A stretch of 33,909 bases of DNA from an uncultured Bacilli bacterium (GTDB lineage: Bacteria > Bacillota_I > Bacilli_A > RFN20 > DUOF01), in contig CALVUJ010000021.1 in assembly GCA_944363575.1 (NCBI GenBank), forward strand, positions 82,226 through 116,134, written 5' to 3'. Position 1 is the stretch's first letter. The number at the start of each line of letters is the position of its first letter. A program made the position numbers and the translations under genes. Below the pieces are notes generated by a model. That model saw nothing but the letters and a program-made list of their open reading frames with translations. It was not told the origin of the DNA and searched no databases. Below are positions 2,222 to 33,909 of the stretch, piece after piece.

Positions 2222-2249
2222 TTCAAAACTTGATTTTCAAAACTTGATT
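2222..2249. repeat. Perfect 14-bp tandem duplication at a gene end
   Basis: Two identical 14-bp units (TTCAAAACTTGATT on the plus strand) lie head to tail across the stop codon of the minus-strand gene ending at 2223. Because 14 is not a multiple of three, the copies are read in different frames, and one copy supplies the TGA stop. This suggests a slippage event that reshaped the C-terminus (VLKIKF). Confidence 0.75.
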
Positions 2250-3476
2250 TTCTTTATTATTCTCCGTTAAACTTTGACACTTAGCAATAAATAATCTCTT
2301 TATCAACATATCTAAAGTTTCACAATCAAAGCTATCTATAAACTCTAATTTTTCTTCTGTTTTATCATCTCTAGGCCCATCATAAATATACAAACTAGCA
2401 TTTATATCTTTATAATATGTTCCATGCATTATAGCATTTCTTAATTTATTTAAAGGAATATAACTCAATTCACTACTTATTTGGTCGTGCAGCACATTAT
2501 TAGGAGTTGTTGAAAATATTTGAAATAAATTGTTACTTAAAAACATACTAAGAATATCCCCAAAATCTTTTAATTCCGTTAACCCACTCGGAGTGTGCAT
2601 ACTTGCTGTAGAAATAAAATTTTGAAGATTTTCACCTCTTAATTTTTTTAAGCAATTTAATAAATGATAAAAATCAATTGTTCTAATAAAATTATTTAAA
2701 GTATTTTGCTTATAGGGATAAAAGAAATTTAAATTATCAGTTTCTTTTATTTTATTATCTCTAATATCTAAAATTAATTGTTTTATTATTTTTCTTTGAT
2801 TCTCATCAGGGTGTAATATTTCATTTGTTCTAATATTTCTTAATTTAATAAACTCTTCTACATTGTATATAAGTTTCTTAGACCTAATTTTATCAATATC
2901 TATATCTAAAATATAATTCAGCTGTTTGTATTCGCTAATATTCTTAATATATTGAACCATTAATGTTACTAGTTCTTCTTCACTTATTATTACTCTAGTA
3001 GAATTATTAGTCTGCTTCTTTTTAGTTGGCAAGAAAGTAAATACTTCTCTAATAAAGTCATAATCATAACACGGGGTATCTAAATCATCATTATGCGCTA
3101 TGGCATTTCTTATATGACTTAATAGTTGCTCATTATTAAAACTTTTATTACCTTGTAAGACATTATTTTTTATTCTATCAAAAGTTGCTTTATCTTTGCT
3201 TAACCCATAATCATAATTTTTATACAGCATTTCATATATATAACAAACAGTTTGAATAACAACAGTGCTTTTTACAGATTTTATAGCATCTGCTAGTATA
3301 TCTCTAGCAGGAACTTCTTTATTATTTAATTTAAGACTAACTTGATTGTTAACTATTGATTCTTTAAAACATGCCAAAAAACTTTTATCAGATTTTTGCA
3401 TCCAAATAGTAAATGCATCTAATAGAGTCATATTATAAGTTAATTTAACTAAATTATAATTTGCTTCATTTACCAT
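2223..3476 (-). CDS. Putative double-HEPN-motif protein, unknown family
   Basis: A 417-aa soluble protein that I do not recognise as a named family. It has two R-x4-H signatures of the HEPN type: R123-N-A-I-A-H128 (followed by ND) and R346-N-A-I-M-H351 (followed by GTYY), one in each half. HEPN domains are metal-independent RNases in many toxin, abortive-infection and Cas13 proteins; the Asn after the Arg and the position in predicted helices fit that pattern. That it is an RNase is inference. ATG at 3476 was chosen because TAGGAGAG lies just upstream; an upstream in-frame ATG at 3503 has no SD. The gene stands alone between a pseudogene patch and a tRNA-Thr, with no CRISPR array, antitoxin or nucleotidyltransferase partner next to it. 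A 14-bp tandem repeat overlaps its stop codon. Confidence 0.6.
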   Translation of the reverse strand: MVNEANYNLVKLTYNMTLLDAFTIWMQKSDKSFLACFKESIVNNQVSLKLNNKEVPARDILADAIKSVKSTVVIQTVCYIYEMLYKNYDYGLSKDKATFDRIKNNVLQGNKSFNNEQLLSHIRNAIAHNDDLDTPCYDYDFIREVFTFLPTKKKQTNNSTRVIISEEELVTLMVQYIKNISEYKQLNYILDIDIDKIRSKKLIYNVEEFIKLRNIRTNEILHPDENQRKIIKQLILDIRDNKIKETDNLNFFYPYKQNTLNNFIRTIDFYHLLNCLKKLRGENLQNFISTASMHTPSGLTELKDFGDILSMFLSNNLFQIFSTTPNNVLHDQISSELSYIPLNKLRNAIMHGTYYKDINASLYIYDGPRDDKTEEKLEFIDSFDCETLDMLIKRLFIAKCQSLTENNKENQVLKIKF

Positions 3477-3515
3477 AAAATCTCTCCTATAATATAACTT
3501 CAATTAAAGAGTACC

Positions 3516-3726: not shown

Positions 3727-4323
3727 TTAATTGTTTTCTATATGAAAAGCAATATAATTTAAAATTTCTAATTCATTAGAATAATTATTAACATCTTTTT
3801 TCACAAAATAATTATAAATATGTTCCTTAACTTTATCTAGCTGATTTTGGTTTAAAGTTAGTTTACCTTGTGGTTTATTAGGCATTCTCCCTATTCTTCT
3901 TTTACTAATTGACCTAATAGCATCTAACTTTAGATATGACCTAGTTATTCCATCATCATTTAATCCTTTTATAACACCTAAATCTAAACATAGCACTGAG
4001 TTATATGAATTTCTACTCGTAAGAGGTATAACCACTACATTACCTAAATCAACAGCCCACACTAAAGCATAATGCCCTTTAGTAAAAACATCACTTAGCT
4101 CATTACCAACATTTACGCCAAACTCTACCCATACGATATCTCCTCTTTGTATATCATCCGGTTGAGCACCATAACTAACTTTTAAAACACTTTGCCTAAA
4201 GTAAACTGTTTTCTTTTCTAACCATAACAAATATTGTAAAACTAAATCTGGATCTAGATTTACTAAATTTTTACGAATATTTTTAAATATTTTTTCATGA
4301 AGTATTTTGTAATTATTATGCAT
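3727..4323 (-). CDS. PemK/MazF-like type II toxin family protein
   Basis: 198 aa. Residues about 58-150 match the PemK/MazF fold: GDIVWVEFGVNVGNE near 61-75, then GHYALVWAVD and VVVIPLTSR (97-104), and IRSISKRRIG further on. Family members are usually sequence-specific mRNA endoribonucleases of about 110 aa. This one has an extra N-terminal helical segment of about 55 residues and a 40-residue C-terminal tail. No antitoxin gene lies beside it, so a housekeeping or regulated RNase role, or an antitoxin elsewhere, is possible. ATG at 4323 was preferred over GTG at 4329 because AGAGG sits eight bases before the ATG but almost touches the GTG. It follows rimO by 31 bp on the same strand. Confidence 0.8.
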   Translation of the reverse strand: MHNNYKILHEKIFKNIRKNLVNLDPDLVLQYLLWLEKKTVYFRQSVLKVSYGAQPDDIQRGDIVWVEFGVNVGNELSDVFTKGHYALVWAVDLGNVVVIPLTSRNSYNSVLCLDLGVIKGLNDDGITRSYLKLDAIRSISKRRIGRMPNKPQGKLTLNQNQLDKVKEHIYNYFVKKDVNNYSNELEILNYIAFHIENN

Positions 4324-4354
4324 AGACACACCTCTTTATATACTATGCCTATCC

Positions 4355-9085: not shown

Positions 9086-10870
9086 ATGAAAGATTTAGTT
9101 GAAACTTCAACTAAAACCCTAGTTTTCGCACTTGGTGGTTTAGGTGAAGTAGGTAAAAATATGTATTGTATACAACATGGTGATTCAATTGTTATTATTG
9201 ATTCTGGAGTTATGTTTGGCGATGAATACTTGCCTGGTGTTGATTACATTTTACCTGATTACTCATATTTAGTAGAAAATAATGAAAAAGTAAAGGCATT
9301 AGTTATAACACATGGTCATGAAGATCATATTGGAGGAATTCCTTTTTTACTAAAAAATATCAATATTCCTTGTATTTATGCACCTAGGTTAGCAGCAGCC
9401 TTTATTCGTAATAAACTAGATGAGAATAAAATGGAAAGAAAAAGTAAAATTATTGAAATAAATGAGAATAGTAATTTTAAGGTTGATTGTTTCTTGTTTT
9501 CTTTTTTTAACACCACGCATTCTATTCCAGATAGTATGGGTATTATTGTTGATACTCCTAATGGAAAAATTGTGGAAACTGGTGATTTTAAAGTCGATTT
9601 AACACCTGTTGGTAAAGATATTGATTTATTGAAAATTGCTAAGCTAGGAGAAGAGAATGTCACATTACTTATGAGTGAATCTACGAATATTGAAATTCCT
9701 GGCACAACTCTTAGTGAGAAGGCTGTTATTTCTTCTATTCACGATATTTTTAGAAATTCCAATAGCAGAATAATCGTAGCTACTTTCTCATCAAATGTAC
9801 ATCGAATTCAACAAATTGTTGAAGCTGCTGTTTTATTTAAAAGAAAAATATTAGTTTTAGGTAGATCAATGGAAAAAAACATTATGTTGGGAAGACAATT
9901 AGGTTATATTAAATGCCCTGATAGCACTTTTATTTCACCTGAGATTGCCAATACTTTAAGACCTGATGAAATATTGATATTTTGTACTGGTACTCAAGGT
10001 GAATCGATGGCAGCTTTATCTCGTATTGCAAGTGGGCAACATAAATATGTTAAATTGATGCCTGGTGATACTATTATTTTATCTTCTAGTCCAATTCCAG
10101 GAAATACTGCTAATATTAATAAACTTGTAAATAATTTAAGCCGTGCTGGAGTAACTGTTTTAACTAATTCCGTTTTATCTAACCTACATACTTCAGGACA
10201 CGCTGCTAGAGAAGAATTAAAATTAATTTTAAAACTTATAAAACCTCAGTATTTTATGCCTATACATGGTGAATATCGTATGTTAAAGTTACACACTGAG
10301 CTTGCACAAGAAGTTGGTGTAAAAAAAGAAAATACTTTTGTACTTGCTAATGGCGATGTCTTGTGTTTAGATAAAGGAAAAGTTACATTAGCGAACTATC
10401 GAATAGAAGCCGATGATATATATATTGATGGGCATGATATTAATGGTTTGTCTACTGCTGTTATAAAAGATCGTAAACTTCTATCAACTGATGGATTAGT
10501 TGCCATCTTAATAAGTATCGATTCTAAAAACAACATTCTTCTTACTAAACCTTCTGTCTTGTCTAGAGGATTTATTTATATTAAAGAAAATGGCCAGTTA
10601 ATAACAGAAATAGAAAACTTAGTTAGTGATACTCTAGAAAACTTATTTAAAAAAGAGAAAACCACTTTTTTACAAATAAAAAATGCTGTTAAAAGTACTG
10701 TTTCAACATTTTTATTTCACAAAACTAGAAGAAACCCAATGATTATCCCTGTAATTATGAATAAAGTAGAAAATGGTGAAAGTTATAACTTTATAAAAAG
10801 AGAAAATAGAAATCAAAAATATTCTAGAAAAGAAAATAAAAATATTGAAGAGAAAATAGCTGAAAATTAG
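9086..10870 (+). CDS. rnjA: Ribonuclease J
   Basis: 594 aa. Metallo-beta-lactamase/beta-CASP RNase with 5'-3' exonuclease and endonuclease activity, central to mRNA decay and rRNA maturation in Bacillota. The metal motif THGHEDHIGG places H76, H78, D80 and H81; H145-region THSIPDSMG and D-containing ETGDFK follow. The beta-CASP region contains STFSSNVHRIQ-type sequence (ATFSSNVHR), GRSMEKN and GTQGE, then the late histidines of NLHTSGHA and MPIHGEYRML. The C-terminal domain (from about 450) is complete, with a Lys/Glu-rich end. AAGGAGAG lies just before the ATG. It stands alone with its own promoter and terminator; whether it corresponds to J1 or J2 cannot be decided from one copy. Confidence 0.96.
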   Translation: MKDLVETSTKTLVFALGGLGEVGKNMYCIQHGDSIVIIDSGVMFGDEYLPGVDYILPDYSYLVENNEKVKALVITHGHEDHIGGIPFLLKNINIPCIYAPRLAAAFIRNKLDENKMERKSKIIEINENSNFKVDCFLFSFFNTTHSIPDSMGIIVDTPNGKIVETGDFKVDLTPVGKDIDLLKIAKLGEENVTLLMSESTNIEIPGTTLSEKAVISSIHDIFRNSNSRIIVATFSSNVHRIQQIVEAAVLFKRKILVLGRSMEKNIMLGRQLGYIKCPDSTFISPEIANTLRPDEILIFCTGTQGESMAALSRIASGQHKYVKLMPGDTIILSSSPIPGNTANINKLVNNLSRAGVTVLTNSVLSNLHTSGHAAREELKLILKLIKPQYFMPIHGEYRMLKLHTELAQEVGVKKENTFVLANGDVLCLDKGKVTLANYRIEADDIYIDGHDINGLSTAVIKDRKLLSTDGLVAILISIDSKNNILLTKPSVLSRGFIYIKENGQLITEIENLVSDTLENLFKKEKTTFLQIKNAVKSTVSTFLFHKTRRNPMIIPVIMNKVENGESYNFIKRENRNQKYSRKENKNIEEKIAEN

Positions 10871-10925: not shown

Positions 10926-13016
10926 TTATTCTTCTTTCTCTTTTTCTTCGTTTTTTTCCTCTTCTGGTTGTTCTTTTGTTTTATCTGCTTCTTTTATTTT
11001 ATTTTTATTGATAAATGGTCGATATTTTTTCTTTATTTTATTGATGTCATATCCTTTTTTCTCCACCAATCTCTTATTTAAAACAATATTAAGCCAATAT
11101 AGTCCTCCTATTACTCCTACAACTAAAATCAAAGTAACCCAACTATTAACTTTAGGCTGTTTAATTTTCTTTTCCATATACAAAGAATTAGCATTTAAAA
11201 TTATTTTTTCTCCATCCCTATTAGATGCATTATAATTATATAATCCTGTCCAGCCTTCTCCAGTCATATCCGTTAACACATATTCATTATGAGAATAATT
11301 TAATACTACGAACACTTTTTCTGTTTCTCTATTATAAGCATTTGGGTATTCCCTAGTATATCCTAAAACTCCTGGTTGCTCTTGATTAATATATATTTTA
11401 AAATTATTTTTTAAGATAACTGAAGATGTTTGAATAATAGTATTATCTCCTTTTCTAAAATTAATTAATGATTGCAAAGATTTTATTGTATGACTATTGC
11501 TGTAAACTTTACTCCAATCTAAACTTTTATATTGCTCTTCTGTATGAAAGCAAAAAGCATCATTCTCTGTGCATATGGAATCAGCTTCTTTACTAGATAA
11601 ATATGACATTAAAAATTCATCACCCGAATATATATATGGAATACCTCCACTAATCATCATAGTTGAAAATCCTAGAATTACTTTTTCTTTAATTAGTTCG
11701 GTGCTTGATAAATTGTTAATATATAATTTATCAAACAATGACAATCCATTTCTACCACCTAAATAATTTATTATTTGATATGAAGACGTATTATTCCAGT
11801 AACTTTTATTAGTTACTCCTTTTACAAGCGAATAATCAATTTCTCCATTATCAACACTACTTAATAAACTAAACTTTAATGTTTCTATAATTTCATTACT
11901 ATAATTACCATCTAATATTCCTGTCTCTTCTTTATTTAATAAATTACCAACCAAACCATAGTTTAAACTCCCATTTACTAATTTAATGTTCGCATTGTTA
12001 ATACTTACAGCACAACTTTCATCCCCATAAATCATGATTTGCCCATTAACCCCTAATAAATTATTCGTTAATTCATTAATGTAACTACTAGGATAATCAC
12101 ACATATTTTCTATTCTAATTCCTGATATTTTAAATTCACTTGCTAGATATACTAGCAAATCTTTTAAATATCTTTGTGTAGATTCACTATTTAAATTCAA
12201 CTGATTATTATTAATGTATTCGCTACTAACTTTACTTATATTATTAATAAAGTCTGTTGATAGTTTTTTATAATCAAACTCTACGATAACCCCAATTCCG
12301 CTCGCATAATAAGAACTTATAACTTGTTTGAACTCAAGATTACTTGAATAACTATCAGTGCCTACCGTATATTTATTATCTAAAGCAAATGGCGTTATAT
12401 CACTATTAATCATAGGTATTTCTATATATGTAATTCCTAAATTTTTAATGTAGTCAAAACCTGTATATTCATTATTATATCTAGTATTAGCTTCAATCAT
12501 TCCTAAAAACTTTCCTCTATTTTCTTCTGTACCAGTCCAAGTGCTACTACTAGTAAAATTTTCAATATTTAACCCATAAATAACTTTATTTTTATCTTTT
12601 ATATTTAAGGTGGTTACCCCATCCCAGTTCTCTATAAATGTTATATTATCCCCATAAATAACATTTCTAGTTTTACTATAATTTAAATATTTACCATATG
12701 GATCTAAAACATTTTCATATACAATTCCATCCTCATATTCAATTTTATAAGAATATTCTTTTCCTTCTAAATTACCTGGAACATATCCTATCCAAATATT
12801 ATTACTTTTAACAAAATCAGCACTTCCAACTTCATCTACTACTACACTTACTTTACTAGCCGTAGGACTATATAAATAAAACATCGTTTTATCTTCACTA
12901 TATTCATAGCCTAATTTATAATCGCTATTAGTGCTTGCTTGAACATTTCCTGATTTAAAAAGAACCATTAAAAATAAAACAATAAAGAAACTATATACAT
13001 ATTTGAATTTTTTCAT
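10926..13016 (-). CDS. Membrane-anchored GH13 pullulanase homologue with substituted catalytic residues
   Basis: 696 aa: signal peptide (residues 2-28, ending NVQA), a CBM48-like module (about 34-120), a GH13 barrel resembling type I pullulanase (about 145-520), a C-terminal beta domain, a membrane helix (about 626-646) and a charged KKEE-rich tail. The scaffold is clear: VIYGLNIENF, GKFLGMIEANT, YTGFDYIKNLGITYIE, INYLGGRNGLSLFDKL, GGIPYIYSGDEFL and YKSLDWSK. The catalytic positions are changed. The nucleophile Asp in FRFDLM is Glu303 (IRIENM), the acid Glu in YGEGW is Asp332 (YGDES), and the HDN of region IV is R-N-G (422-424). Starch debranching is therefore doubtful; a glycan-binding or structural role is possible. 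The start at 13016 follows AGGTGA; an in-frame ATG at 13046 lacks a ribosome site. Confidence 0.85.
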   Translation of the reverse strand: MKKFKYVYSFFIVLFLMVLFKSGNVQASTNSDYKLGYEYSEDKTMFYLYSPTASKVSVVVDEVGSADFVKSNNIWIGYVPGNLEGKEYSYKIEYEDGIVYENVLDPYGKYLNYSKTRNVIYGDNITFIENWDGVTTLNIKDKNKVIYGLNIENFTSSSTWTGTEENRGKFLGMIEANTRYNNEYTGFDYIKNLGITYIEIPMINSDITPFALDNKYTVGTDSYSSNLEFKQVISSYYASGIGVIVEFDYKKLSTDFINNISKVSSEYINNNQLNLNSESTQRYLKDLLVYLASEFKISGIRIENMCDYPSSYINELTNNLLGVNGQIMIYGDESCAVSINNANIKLVNGSLNYGLVGNLLNKEETGILDGNYSNEIIETLKFSLLSSVDNGEIDYSLVKGVTNKSYWNNTSSYQIINYLGGRNGLSLFDKLYINNLSSTELIKEKVILGFSTMMISGGIPYIYSGDEFLMSYLSSKEADSICTENDAFCFHTEEQYKSLDWSKVYSNSHTIKSLQSLINFRKGDNTIIQTSSVILKNNFKIYINQEQPGVLGYTREYPNAYNRETEKVFVVLNYSHNEYVLTDMTGEGWTGLYNYNASNRDGEKIILNANSLYMEKKIKQPKVNSWVTLILVVGVIGGLYWLNIVLNKRLVEKKGYDINKIKKKYRPFINKNKIKEADKTKEQPEEEKNEEKEKEE

Positions 13017-13057
13017 TTCACTGTCACCTATAATAAATTTTATCAAAATAAATCTTT

Positions 13058-13079: not shown

Positions 13080-13128
13080 TTAGACAATTTATATTAAAAT
13101 TTTCATGAAACATGAAAGAAGTGAATTA

Positions 13129-14091
13129 ATGAAAAACAAATTTATCCTAAATATTAAATCGCTATTTAAATCAATATTTAATAGCAAAGAATTATTCAAC
13201 AGAAGAAAGAATTCTTTTTTGGTTCCTTTAATTATCTTTTTACTAACTATTTTTATGACGGCTTTTCCAACCTATTTTACATCAATTAATAAAAATAGTT
13301 CTGAGATTATTAAAAATTTCCCTGGCATTTATAAGCCTATGGAAACACTTTTAACTAGCTCTCTTGATTGTAAAATTGAAAAGGAAGTTTTGACATGTAC
13401 TGAGAATTCTATTAAAGTTAATCAAGTAGTGGAATTTTATGATGAAGCAACACAAAGAACTTACAAATATACAATTATTGCCAATGAACCTAATATTTCT
13501 AGCGACATATCTGTTACTTATTCACCTGTTAAAGATACGGATAATCTTATTATTCTTTTGAATAACTATATAAAGATTCGTTATGTCGAAAGAGACTATG
13601 TAAATCAAAATGTAAAAACTTATGAAATACTTGGAGATTATAGTGAATTTGAAGGTTATGATTTTAAAACTATTAGTGATAAATTACTTTCTTCTCCTGA
13701 ATTAGTTAACGAAGAAGTTACTAATTTTATTTATAAAACTTATTTATCTACTTTAGATACTCAGTTATTAGTAGGCATTGCAAGCGCTTTATTATCCTTC
13801 TTGGTTTTTATCTTAGTTTCTTCATTTATTTTAAAAAGTACTACTTTATTTAAAAAGAAAAAAGGATTTAAATATCGAGAATGTTTGAAAATTTCGCTTA
13901 CATCTGCTTTACCTGCCTTATTAATTGCTAGTTGTGGTGCTTTGTTATTTAAAGCTGATTTTACTTCTATTTATGCACTTATTTATATAGGTAGAGTTTT
14001 GTATATTTATTTTAGATATTTATATTCTAATAAAAATAATATTTATAAAGACTTATATTTAGAAACTAATGATGAGAGGTTTAAAATATAA
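13129..14091 (+). CDS. DUF1189-like membrane protein
   Basis: 320 aa. One hydrophobic segment near the N-terminus (SFLVPLIIFLLTIFMTAFPTYF), an extracellular-looking domain of about 160 residues, then three hydrophobic segments (LLVGIASALLSFLVFILVSSFIL; ISLTSALPALLIASCGALLF; FTSIYALIYIGRVLYIYF). This layout resembles DUF1189 membrane proteins of Bacilli, but the assignment is tentative. The extracellular part has a Cys pair (SLDCKIEKEVLTC). ATG at 13129 was taken because AAGTGA precedes it; 13105 is an alternative without a clear site. Its TAA overlaps the maf ATG by one base (TAATG), so the two are probably translationally coupled. Confidence 0.6.
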   Translation: MKNKFILNIKSLFKSIFNSKELFNRRKNSFLVPLIIFLLTIFMTAFPTYFTSINKNSSEIIKNFPGIYKPMETLLTSSLDCKIEKEVLTCTENSIKVNQVVEFYDEATQRTYKYTIIANEPNISSDISVTYSPVKDTDNLIILLNNYIKIRYVERDYVNQNVKTYEILGDYSEFEGYDFKTISDKLLSSPELVNEEVTNFIYKTYLSTLDTQLLVGIASALLSFLVFILVSSFILKSTTLFKKKKGFKYRECLKISLTSALPALLIASCGALLFKADFTSIYALIYIGRVLYIYFRYLYSNKNNIYKDLYLETNDERFKI

Positions 14092-14900: not shown

Positions 14901-14929
14901 AAAAGCATAGTTTAACTTACTATGCTTTT
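14901..14929. terminator. Bidirectional terminator
   Basis: Perfect 11-bp stem AAAAGCATAGT and ACTATGCTTTT, with T-rich flanks on both strands. It ends the maf unit (plus) and the EIIB-like gene (minus), whose stop codon (14920-14922) lies inside the stem. Confidence 0.88.
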
Positions 14930-15255
14930 ATATTATTTTGTAAATACTTGTACACTAATGGAGCTTTTTTACCTATTACTAAAGTTATCTTTTTATTAGA
15001 AACAACAATAGCTTCCACTCCATTTTCTTTAACTTGTTCTTTGTCAACATTCTTTTTGTTTTCAAAGTTAAAACTGATTCGTGAACCGTTTAAACTAAGA
15101 TTAGAAATATTACTTGCACCACCTAAAGCTTCTAATAATTCTGGAAATTCATAATTATTTTTCTTTTTAGATTTTGCTTTTAAAACTACTATTAGAATAA
15201 TGATGATTAATAGTAATATTCCGCCTATTAAACACCATTTCAGCTCATCAGCCAT
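14920..15255 (-). CDS. Membrane-anchored PTS EIIB-like domain lacking the phospho-cysteine
   Basis: 111 aa. An N-terminal membrane helix (WCLIGGILLLIIIILIVVLKA) and a basic linker precede a domain that aligns with the glucose-type EIIB fold: ELLEALGGASNI (39-50), the R59 of the TRLR position, VDKEQVKENGVEAIV (70-84) and VIGKKAPLV (93-101). In true EIIB the loop after the first helix has a Cys that accepts phosphate from EIIA; here that position is Asn56 (LNGSRIS), so phosphotransfer is unlikely. No EIIC or EIIA is nearby. A regulatory or ligand-sensing role is inference. Good ribosome site (TAGGAGTG), own promoter. Confidence 0.7.
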   Translation of the reverse strand: MADELKWCLIGGILLLIIIILIVVLKAKSKKKNNYEFPELLEALGGASNISNLSLNGSRISFNFENKKNVDKEQVKENGVEAIVVSNKKITLVIGKKAPLVYKYLQNNIKA

Positions 15256-32206: not shown

Positions 32207-33909
32207 CTATTTTTTACTCCTATTTTCTTTTTTTTCTTTAATACTTAAAATCAAAACAATTATTTCATGCATTATTAATACCAATAGAGAAATTCCTAAA
32301 ATATAACACCATTCACTAAAAGCTAACTGTGTTGTTTTAAAGAATTTATTTAAAAATGGAATTTCTGTAACAATAACTTGCAAAAATACACCTAAAGCAA
32401 CTGAAAATAGCATTAACTTATTATTAAACGTTTCTTTTCTTATAAATGTTTTTCTCGTATTTCTCATTCCTAAAGCATGGAACAACTCACACACTGCTAA
32501 AGTTGTAAATGCAAATGTTTGTGCTCTCATTAGGATATCCTCGTTTTCCAATATTCCTAATATAGAATCATAATTAATTTGACTTCCCAAATTATTTAAT
32601 TCCGCAATAGGTACACTTAAGAAAGCAAATAACGTTAAGATTCCAATCAAAAATCCGTACAATAATGTAATCTGTATTCCCCCGTGAGCAAACAATGATT
32701 CTTTAGGGTTACGTGGCTTGTCCTTCATAACATCACTATCTTTAGGATCGCTTCCTAGTGCTAAAGCTGGAACAGAATCTGTTAATAAATTTATCCATAA
32801 TATATGAATAGCAATAAGTGGCATTGGCATCCCAATTAAAATAGCCACAAACATTGTTACAATTTCAGCAAAATTGCTCGACAATAAAAATAAAACAGAC
32901 TTTTTTATGTTACCATATATCGTTCTTCCTTCTTCTATCGCTTTCTCGATAGAAGCAAAATTATCATCACTAAGCACCATATCCGCTGCACCTTTAGCAA
33001 CATCTGTTCCAGTTATTCCCATAGCAATTCCAATGTCCACTGCTTTCAAACTAGGAGCATCATTAACACCATCTCCTGTCATAGAAACTATCTTATCATT
33101 AGCTTTAAATGCTTTAACAATTTTAACTTTATGTTCTGGTGAAACTCTTGCAAAAACTCTTAGATTAGTGACCCTGTCATTTAATTCTTCTTGTGTCATT
33201 TTATCTAATTGATCACCGCTAATGCATTGATCTATTGTTTCTGCAATTCCCAAGTCTTTTGCAATTGCAAAGGCCGTATCTTTATGATCTCCAGTAATCA
33301 TTATAGTTGTAATCCCCGCTTGCTTAAAGGTATTAACGGCTTCCTTAGCTTCAGGTCTAGGAGGATCAATCATTCCTACCATACCTACAAAAATTAAGTT
33401 ATTTTCTTCAAACTGGCCAACCTCTTTATATGCTAATGCAAGTACTCTAAGGGCCTCTTGAGACATATTAAGAGATGCATCATTTATTCTATCTATGTCT
33501 TCTTTTGTTATTTCACGAACTTTATCATCAACGTATATTTTAGTACATACTTTCAAAATATTATCAATAGCACCTTTAGTGTACATTCTTTTACAATTTC
33601 CATAAATATGCTGTGTAGACATTAGTTTTCTTTCCGAGTCAAAAGGCAATTCATTAATACGTTTATGATCTTTATTTAAATTATCTTTTTCTACTCCAAA
33701 TTTTTTTCCTAAATCAATGAGTGCTACTTCAGTAGGATCTCCTATAGCATTTCCATTATCAATAACAGCATCATTACATAGGACCATTCCTTCAATTAAC
33801 AATTCGCAATTTTTCGCATTATTTATATGATATGATTTTTCAGAGCAATACATTTTTTCTACAGTCATTTTATTTTGGGTAAGAGTACCAGTTTTATCAC
33901 TACAAACAA
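32207..33909 (-). CDS. P2-type cation (probably calcium) transporting ATPase, 5' end outside the window
   Basis: The last 566 residues are visible. The first bases in the window encode the phosphorylation motif CSDKTGTLTQNKMTVEK, with the aspartyl-phosphate Asp codon at 33896-33898. Then come the nucleotide-binding domain (FDSERKLMS and MYTKGAIDNIL), the hinge MITGDHKDTAFAIAKDLGI and MTGDGVNDAPSLKAVDIGIAMG, and six membrane helices. ILWINLLTDSVPALALG in M6 has the Asn and Asp seen at calcium sites of P2A pumps (SERCA-like NLVTDGLPA), and M5 has NFAEIVTMF. Export of calcium or a similar ion across the membrane is the expected role; M4 lies outside, so the ion is not proven. Confidence 0.92.
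   Translation of the reverse strand, partial: VCSDKTGTLTQNKMTVEKMYCSEKSYHINNAKNCELLIEGMVLCNDAVIDNGNAIGDPTEVALIDLGKKFGVEKDNLNKDHKRINELPFDSERKLMSTQHIYGNCKRMYTKGAIDNILKVCTKIYVDDKVREITKEDIDRINDASLNMSQEALRVLALAYKEVGQFEENNLIFVGMVGMIDPPRPEAKEAVNTFKQAGITTIMITGDHKDTAFAIAKDLGIAETIDQCISGDQLDKMTQEELNDRVTNLRVFARVSPEHKVKIVKAFKANDKIVSMTGDGVNDAPSLKAVDIGIAMGITGTDVAKGAADMVLSDDNFASIEKAIEEGRTIYGNIKKSVLFLLSSNFAEIVTMFVAILIGMPMPLIAIHILWINLLTDSVPALALGSDPKDSDVMKDKPRNPKESLFAHGGIQITLLYGFLIGILTLFAFLSVPIAELNNLGSQINYDSILGILENEDILMRAQTFAFTTLAVCELFHALGMRNTRKTFIRKETFNNKLMLFSVALGVFLQVIVTEIPFLNKFFKTTQLAFSEWCYILGISLLVLIMHEIIVLILSIKEKKENRSKK

Follow-up and report, generated by a model that had tools for sequence, protein, structure and literature searches.

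P0001, a 696-residue protein encoded on the complementary strand of the window (the whole stretch of 33,909 nucleotides analysed, from an uncultured Bacilli bacterium whose genome is called G000 here), is very probably non-catalytic as an alpha-glucan hydrolase. All three acids of the GH13 catalytic triad are replaced in P0001 and in its two orthologues, P0002 and P0003, and all 45 canonical homologues aligned with them keep the triad. The protein descends, as a pseudoenzyme, from a type I pullulanase, and we favour, at about an even chance, the view that it acts as a non-catalytic membrane scaffold or receptor.

Gene, domains and fold of P0001

The gene and the protein that it encodes are laid out as follows, residue numbers being those of P0001.

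10926..13016, minus strand: gene of the pseudo-pullulanase P0001, 696 codons plus stop, ATG at 13016 and TAA at 10926
12936..13016, minus strand: signal peptide, residues 1-27, read from hydropathy, with cleavage after VQA placed by eye
12693..12917, minus strand: CBM48, residues 34-108 (Pfam PF02922, 39.9 bits against a cut-off of 22.4)
11442..12599, minus strand: GH13-type (beta/alpha)8 barrel, about residues 140-525, from the order of strands and helices in the model and from superposition
12108..12110, minus strand: E303, position of the nucleophile Asp (D in 45/45 canonical rows)
12021..12023, minus strand: D332, position of the general acid Glu (E in 45/45 canonical rows)
11748..11750, minus strand: N423, position of the transition-state Asp (D in 45/45 canonical rows)
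11550..11573, minus strand: loop containing Cys482 and Cys489, which may form a disulfide; 3/3 orthologues have a Cys pair at this place
11157..11402, minus strand: domain C beta-sandwich, residues 539-620, from the AlphaFold2 model
11073..11150, minus strand: transmembrane segment, residues 623-648, from hydropathy (model helix 625-654)
10929..11072, minus strand: charged tail, residues 649-696, presumed cytosolic, with 16 K/R and 13 D/E, from the alignment

An alternative TTG start at 13046 would add 10 residues. The relationship of P0001 to type I pullulanase goes well beyond what chance would give. The protein matches the NCBIfam model of type I pullulanase, TIGR02104, with an E value of 1.9e-43 and 148.4 bits, below the equivalog cut-off of 504.5, and its best sequence match in the PDB is 2WAN, a pullulanase of B. 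acidopullulyticus (residues 32-575, E 3.3e-24). The Pfam GH13 model gives no match to P0001.

The signal peptide announced by the preliminary description of this DNA is present at the amino terminus, as judged by eye and by hydropathy. The carboxyl-terminal anchor that it announced exists too, in a refined form: transmembrane segment 623-648 is followed by the 48-residue charged tail and is not part of a wall-sorting signal. An LPXTG wall anchor was discarded, no such motif being read in the sequence and the tail, with its 48 residues, being too long for one. This topology derives from hydropathy and the model rather than from a dedicated predictor.

AlphaFold2 models were made for P0001 (mean pLDDT 84.0, pTM 0.82) and for P0003 (pLDDT 79.6) from input alignments that both included canonical members, which favours the canonical fold. 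The top structural matches of the P0001 model are solved type I pullulanases (Foldseek, VIA-align 2), with a Z score of 42.6 to 2WAN over 554 residues at 2.3 A (VIA-align 2), and the P0003 model has a pullulanase fold with a Z score of 32.5 to 3WDJ. In the P0001 model, strands 299-302, 328-331 and 415-418 are directly followed by E303, D332 and N423. GH13 triads sit on strands 4, 5 and 7 according to a review (PMC11046441), and the model places these three residues at the corresponding beta4, beta5 and beta7 positions. Superposed on type I pullulanase, the predicted structure thus matches in fold and is substituted at every triad position. The claim that the rest of the GH13 scaffold is retained holds for the fold (CBM48, barrel and domain C) but not for most of the substrate-contact motifs, which are lost.

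Catalytic triad and cleft motifs

The triad was followed in a 48-row alignment of the three orthologues with 45 canonical homologues of the same order. These canonical rows are P0004, P0005 (the second pullulanase of G000 itself) and 43 of 46 loci selected from the best-scoring, ATG-started ORFs of at least 500 aa with a phmmer E value <= 1e-20 to P0004; L020, L023 and L046 were dropped as near-copies and L014 had been omitted earlier as partial. The triad reads D/E/D in all 45 canonical rows, E/D/N in P0001, and R/G/E and E/G/E in P0002 and P0003, respectively, the three acids being absent from both. Alignment and model therefore agree with the preliminary description in placing E303, D332 and N423 at the three catalytic positions, and the related genomes extend its claim to both orthologues, with different replacements. 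The assignment in P0001 is stable in four MAFFT modes applied to the 48 rows and in four random subsets, in one of which the second triad residue of P0002 fell in a gap. An intact Asp/Glu/Asp triad elsewhere in P0001 appears neither in these eight realignments nor in the model.

The surroundings of the triad are changed as well. Canonical rows have R and H at two substrate-contact positions beside it; P0001 keeps the first as R301 and has R422 in place of the His. The N, W, G and Y columns of a YNWGYDP-type motif, each found in 98-100% of the 45 canonical rows, are gaps in P0001. P0001, P0002 and P0003 all differ from the canonical rows at the His of region I, at the His of region IV and in most of region II. 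The canonical rows conserve 79 columns. Of these, 21 lie in the five active-site motifs and 58 elsewhere; the three proteins keep 3, 5 and 1 of the former and 32, 34 and 22 of the latter, respectively. The preferential loss of motif columns has Fisher p values of 0.002, 0.010 and 0.004, with columns taken as independent and the 21 motif columns picked post hoc, once the 48-row alignment had been seen. Erosion of the orthologues is targeted: motif columns are lost preferentially, and the fold is kept in the two that were modelled, P0001 and P0003.

Acids remain at two of the three triad positions of P0001, and E199 on strand 2 is new and identical in the three orthologues (in a fraction of 0.02 of canonical rows), E467 being kept in all. 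A changed enzyme with new pocket chemistry, based for instance on E303 with D332 or on E199 with E467, could account for these residues. However, at every triad position at least one orthologue has R, G or N in place of an acid; the neighbouring contact residues differ among them, and besides E199/E467 no common new active-site set is visible. We consider such an enzyme very improbable.

Distribution and maintenance of the orthologues

Of the other family genomes, G001 to G003, two encode an orthologue of P0001, so that three of the four family genomes carry the protein. P0002 is encoded on contig DUOF01000006.1 of bacterium isolate AS08sgBPME_148, and P0003 on JAFWYE010000006.1 of Bacilli bacterium RGIG6178 from sheep rectum. 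G003, whose assembly is 86% complete, gives no match to the pseudo-pullulanase profile. A wider contig scan found two loci, both being records of P0002 and P0003. Profile A1 scores over 1000 bits solely in the three family genomes; the next match, in G008, reaches 251 bits and is canonical, and in 395 evenly drawn genomes of the class the next best match reaches 224 bits. Ten new loci from across the class have GFRFDLM and HDN in 10/10 cases and YGExW in 8/10. Among the best-ranked matches no further pseudo-member was recognised outside the family, these being canonical or having mostly intact motifs.

The three orthologues share 26-33% pairwise identity. TIGR02104 recognises P0002 (229.9 bits) and not P0003, which has no Pfam or NCBIfam match at E <= 0.01; the CBM48 is recognised by Pfam in P0001 and P0002, two of the three orthologues, and not in P0003. 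Common to all are the loop Cys pair, the transmembrane segment and a tail that opens with a KKxGxDxxxIK-like stretch and extends 48-80 residues beyond the membrane-spanning helix. A search with the tail in five genomes retrieved solely the orthologues at E <= 1e-3, and the idea of an anchor tail shared with other surface proteins was abandoned on this result. Two weaker matches in G000 have E values of 0.0047 (with stops) and 0.03.

The three proteins form one branch of the tree (SH-aLRT 100), but long branches meet there: the terminal ones measure 1.49, 1.56 and 5.0 changes per column, against a median of 0.35. The three may descend from cytosolic or from lipoprotein pullulanases. The gene lies beside rnj in 3/3 holders, and its inheritance across three genera is therefore vertical.

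Fast branches, a genome of about 1.1 Mb and the lack of a match in G003 of the same family would fit a relic in decay, a pullulanase gene that is being lost and is still present merely for want of time. Against this stand full-length open frames of 696-737 codons in three genera at such low identity. Random sequence of the same composition would contain an expected 62-73 stops, although this is a different yardstick from a decay model. Confident folds, the conserved anchor and tail, and a codon-position GC of the P0001 gene that resembles that of neighbouring genes argue in the same direction, and we hold a relic to be improbable. The earlier statement that this large pseudoenzyme is maintained is upheld by its retention beside rnj, the open frames and the shared anchor, with the reservation that it evolves fast. 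We read this as selection on the fold and anchoring of P0001 that is real but loose.

The gene is flanked by the following two genes.

9086..10870, plus strand: rnj (RNase J), convergent neighbour in 3/3 holders; a locus marker, not part of the mechanism
13105..14091, plus strand: P0006, divergent neighbour in 2/3 holders, a membrane protein without a recognised family

P0006 adjoins the pseudo-pullulanase gene in G000 and G002 and lies elsewhere in G001, and is on weak grounds a candidate partner. A profile built from its homologues in G000, G001, G002 and G008 gives strong matches solely in these same four genomes. Homologues at E <= 1e-5 occur in 73/279 genomes of the order; co-distribution is therefore not specific and makes no case for a dedicated partner. 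Assignment of P0006 to DUF1189, a family known from Streptococcus as DUF1189/MalA, would tie the locus to maltodextrin use. Pfam gives it no support: PF06691 (cut-off 28 bits) does not match P0006 and gives 10.9 bits (E 0.32) with the G001 homologue.

The position before rnj is occupied by a LytR-CpsA-Psr-type gene in G000 and G002 (by eye in G002), unlike in G001, where rnj is preceded by a putative lipoprotein of 1216 residues whose start is repeat-like (L032, 2063-5713, minus strand). Other minus-strand genes of the window encode a DUF4143 protein (538-1224, PF13635), apparently just the C-terminal portion of the common ATPase-DUF4143 architecture; a 426-residue protein with no Pfam or NCBIfam match (2223-3503); a protein with a PemK/MazF-like toxin domain (3727-4329, PF02452); a 111-residue membrane protein with a weak PTS_EIIB match of 18.9 bits, below the cut-off of 27 (14920-15255); and the C-terminal part of a P-type cation ATPase near the contig end, where contig and window end together (32207-33868).

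Alpha-glucan metabolism, proposed role and known counterparts

One cluster of G000 contains the genes for its second pullulanase, for GlgB and for glycogen phosphorylase; MalQ is encoded at another site. PF00128 matches solely this pullulanase and GlgB, and the sole canonical PulA match of the genome has a copy on contig C15 without a visible signal peptide. None was seen either in those further GH13 proteins that were read in G001 and G002, some of them in part. Capture of starch with ABC uptake would involve a sugar ABC substrate-binding protein, and matches to SBP_bac_1 and SBP_bac_8 (PF01547, PF13416) are found in none of the four family genomes; an incomplete assembly might account for its absence from one genome, with less likelihood for its absence from all four. 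In G008, home of the nearest canonical lipoprotein-like pullulanase, PF13416 and PF01547 have 9 and 10 matches, respectively. Since no sugar-ABC binding protein and no other GH13 protein of secreted appearance was found, extracellular starch use seems to have been given up in the family, with the surface pullulanase persisting in non-catalytic form. In G003, with its 86% complete assembly, GH13, GH77, SBP_bac_1, SBP_bac_8 and the pseudo-pullulanase are all without a match, which suggests complete loss of alpha-glucan use in this sister genus.

The preliminary description proposed glycan binding or a structural duty. Glycan binding by the CBM48 or by surface sites is the main rival to a scaffold: P0001 would be a surface lectin whose CBM48 or secondary sites bind starch, glycogen or capsular glucan without hydrolysis, for adhesion or to hold substrate near the amylases of other cells. 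The CBM48 of P0001 and P0002 and the cell-surface location fit this reading, and complexes of the plant proteins ISA1 and ISA2 have been modelled with several glucan-binding sites (PMC12510319). It is weakened by the loss of the cleft motifs (the YNWGYDP-type stretch in P0001, regions I, II and IV in all three), by the failure of Pfam to recognise a CBM48 in P0003 and by the missing sugar-ABC binding proteins of the family, and we regard it as unlikely.

The structural duty is favoured, as that of a scaffold or receptor, and we infer with about equal chances for and against that this is the present role of P0001. The ectodomain would face outward and, without catalysis, bind another surface protein or a ligand, and the conserved tail may dock something inside the cell. 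By analogy, its mode of work would be that of the non-catalytic GH13 subunits ISA2 and 4F2hc/rBAT, not that of an enzyme. Loss of extracellular starch use in the lineage probably released it from its earlier role. Some observations count against a scaffold or receptor: the fast evolution of the orthologues also fits weak constraint, the CBM48 in two of the three fits a lectin, and P0006 lies apart from the gene in G001.

Automatic annotation could call P0001 a pullulanase and so ascribe to a gut bacterium of small genome an extracellular starch debranching that is very likely absent from it. The three orthologues, in which the same site is lost by different replacements, offer a compact natural series on the post-catalytic role of the debranching-enzyme fold, and serve equally to ask whether loss of sugar import accompanies such reuse.

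P0001 shares fold, ancestry and the order CBM48-barrel-domain C with type I pullulanases (TIGR02104; PDB 2WAN, 2E8Y, 3WDH, 6JHG), and differs from them in having no triad, lost motifs, a transmembrane anchor with tail, and 148 bits versus the 504.5 of the cut-off. Plant ISA2 is, like P0001, a debranching-enzyme GH13 paralogue that has lost its catalytic residues; PMC12510319 describes it as conserved despite a non-functional site and as evolving faster than its active kin. The catalytic residues are likewise changed across the P0001 group, in 3/3 orthologues. ISA2, an isoamylase-type protein, has active ISA1 as its partner (same source), whereas P0001 is of the pullulanase type, apparently exported and membrane-bound, and no secreted active partner comparable to ISA1 is seen in G000. 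4F2hc and rBAT, the heavy chains of animal amino-acid transporters, combine a GH13-like ectodomain of absent or doubtful activity with one transmembrane domain (PMC8537225). P0001 has the same combination of a single transmembrane segment, by hydropathy and model, and a GH13 ectodomain, with the segment at the C-terminus; in 4F2hc/rBAT it is near the N-terminus and an SLC7 light chain is covalently linked (same source). The polysaccharide deacetylase-like lipoproteins BA0330 and BA0331 of B. anthracis are also surface proteins, without activity, that stabilise the cell wall; they differ from P0001 in fold, family and their lipid anchor (PMC4505593).

It is conceivable, though doubtful, that P0001 is a bacterial counterpart of 4F2hc and ISA2, in which one gut Bacilli family turned a debranching enzyme into a single-pass transmembrane receptor or transporter-accessory subunit, sensing or organising outside and signalling or docking inside through its tail. 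A literature search, with most subscription papers outside its scope, found no bacterial pullulanase pseudoenzyme, which is weak evidence of absence. Non-catalytic GH13 proteins are already documented in plants and animals; new here is the combination of descent from a bacterial type I pullulanase, export to the surface, and an anchor that spans the membrane and carries a conserved tail.
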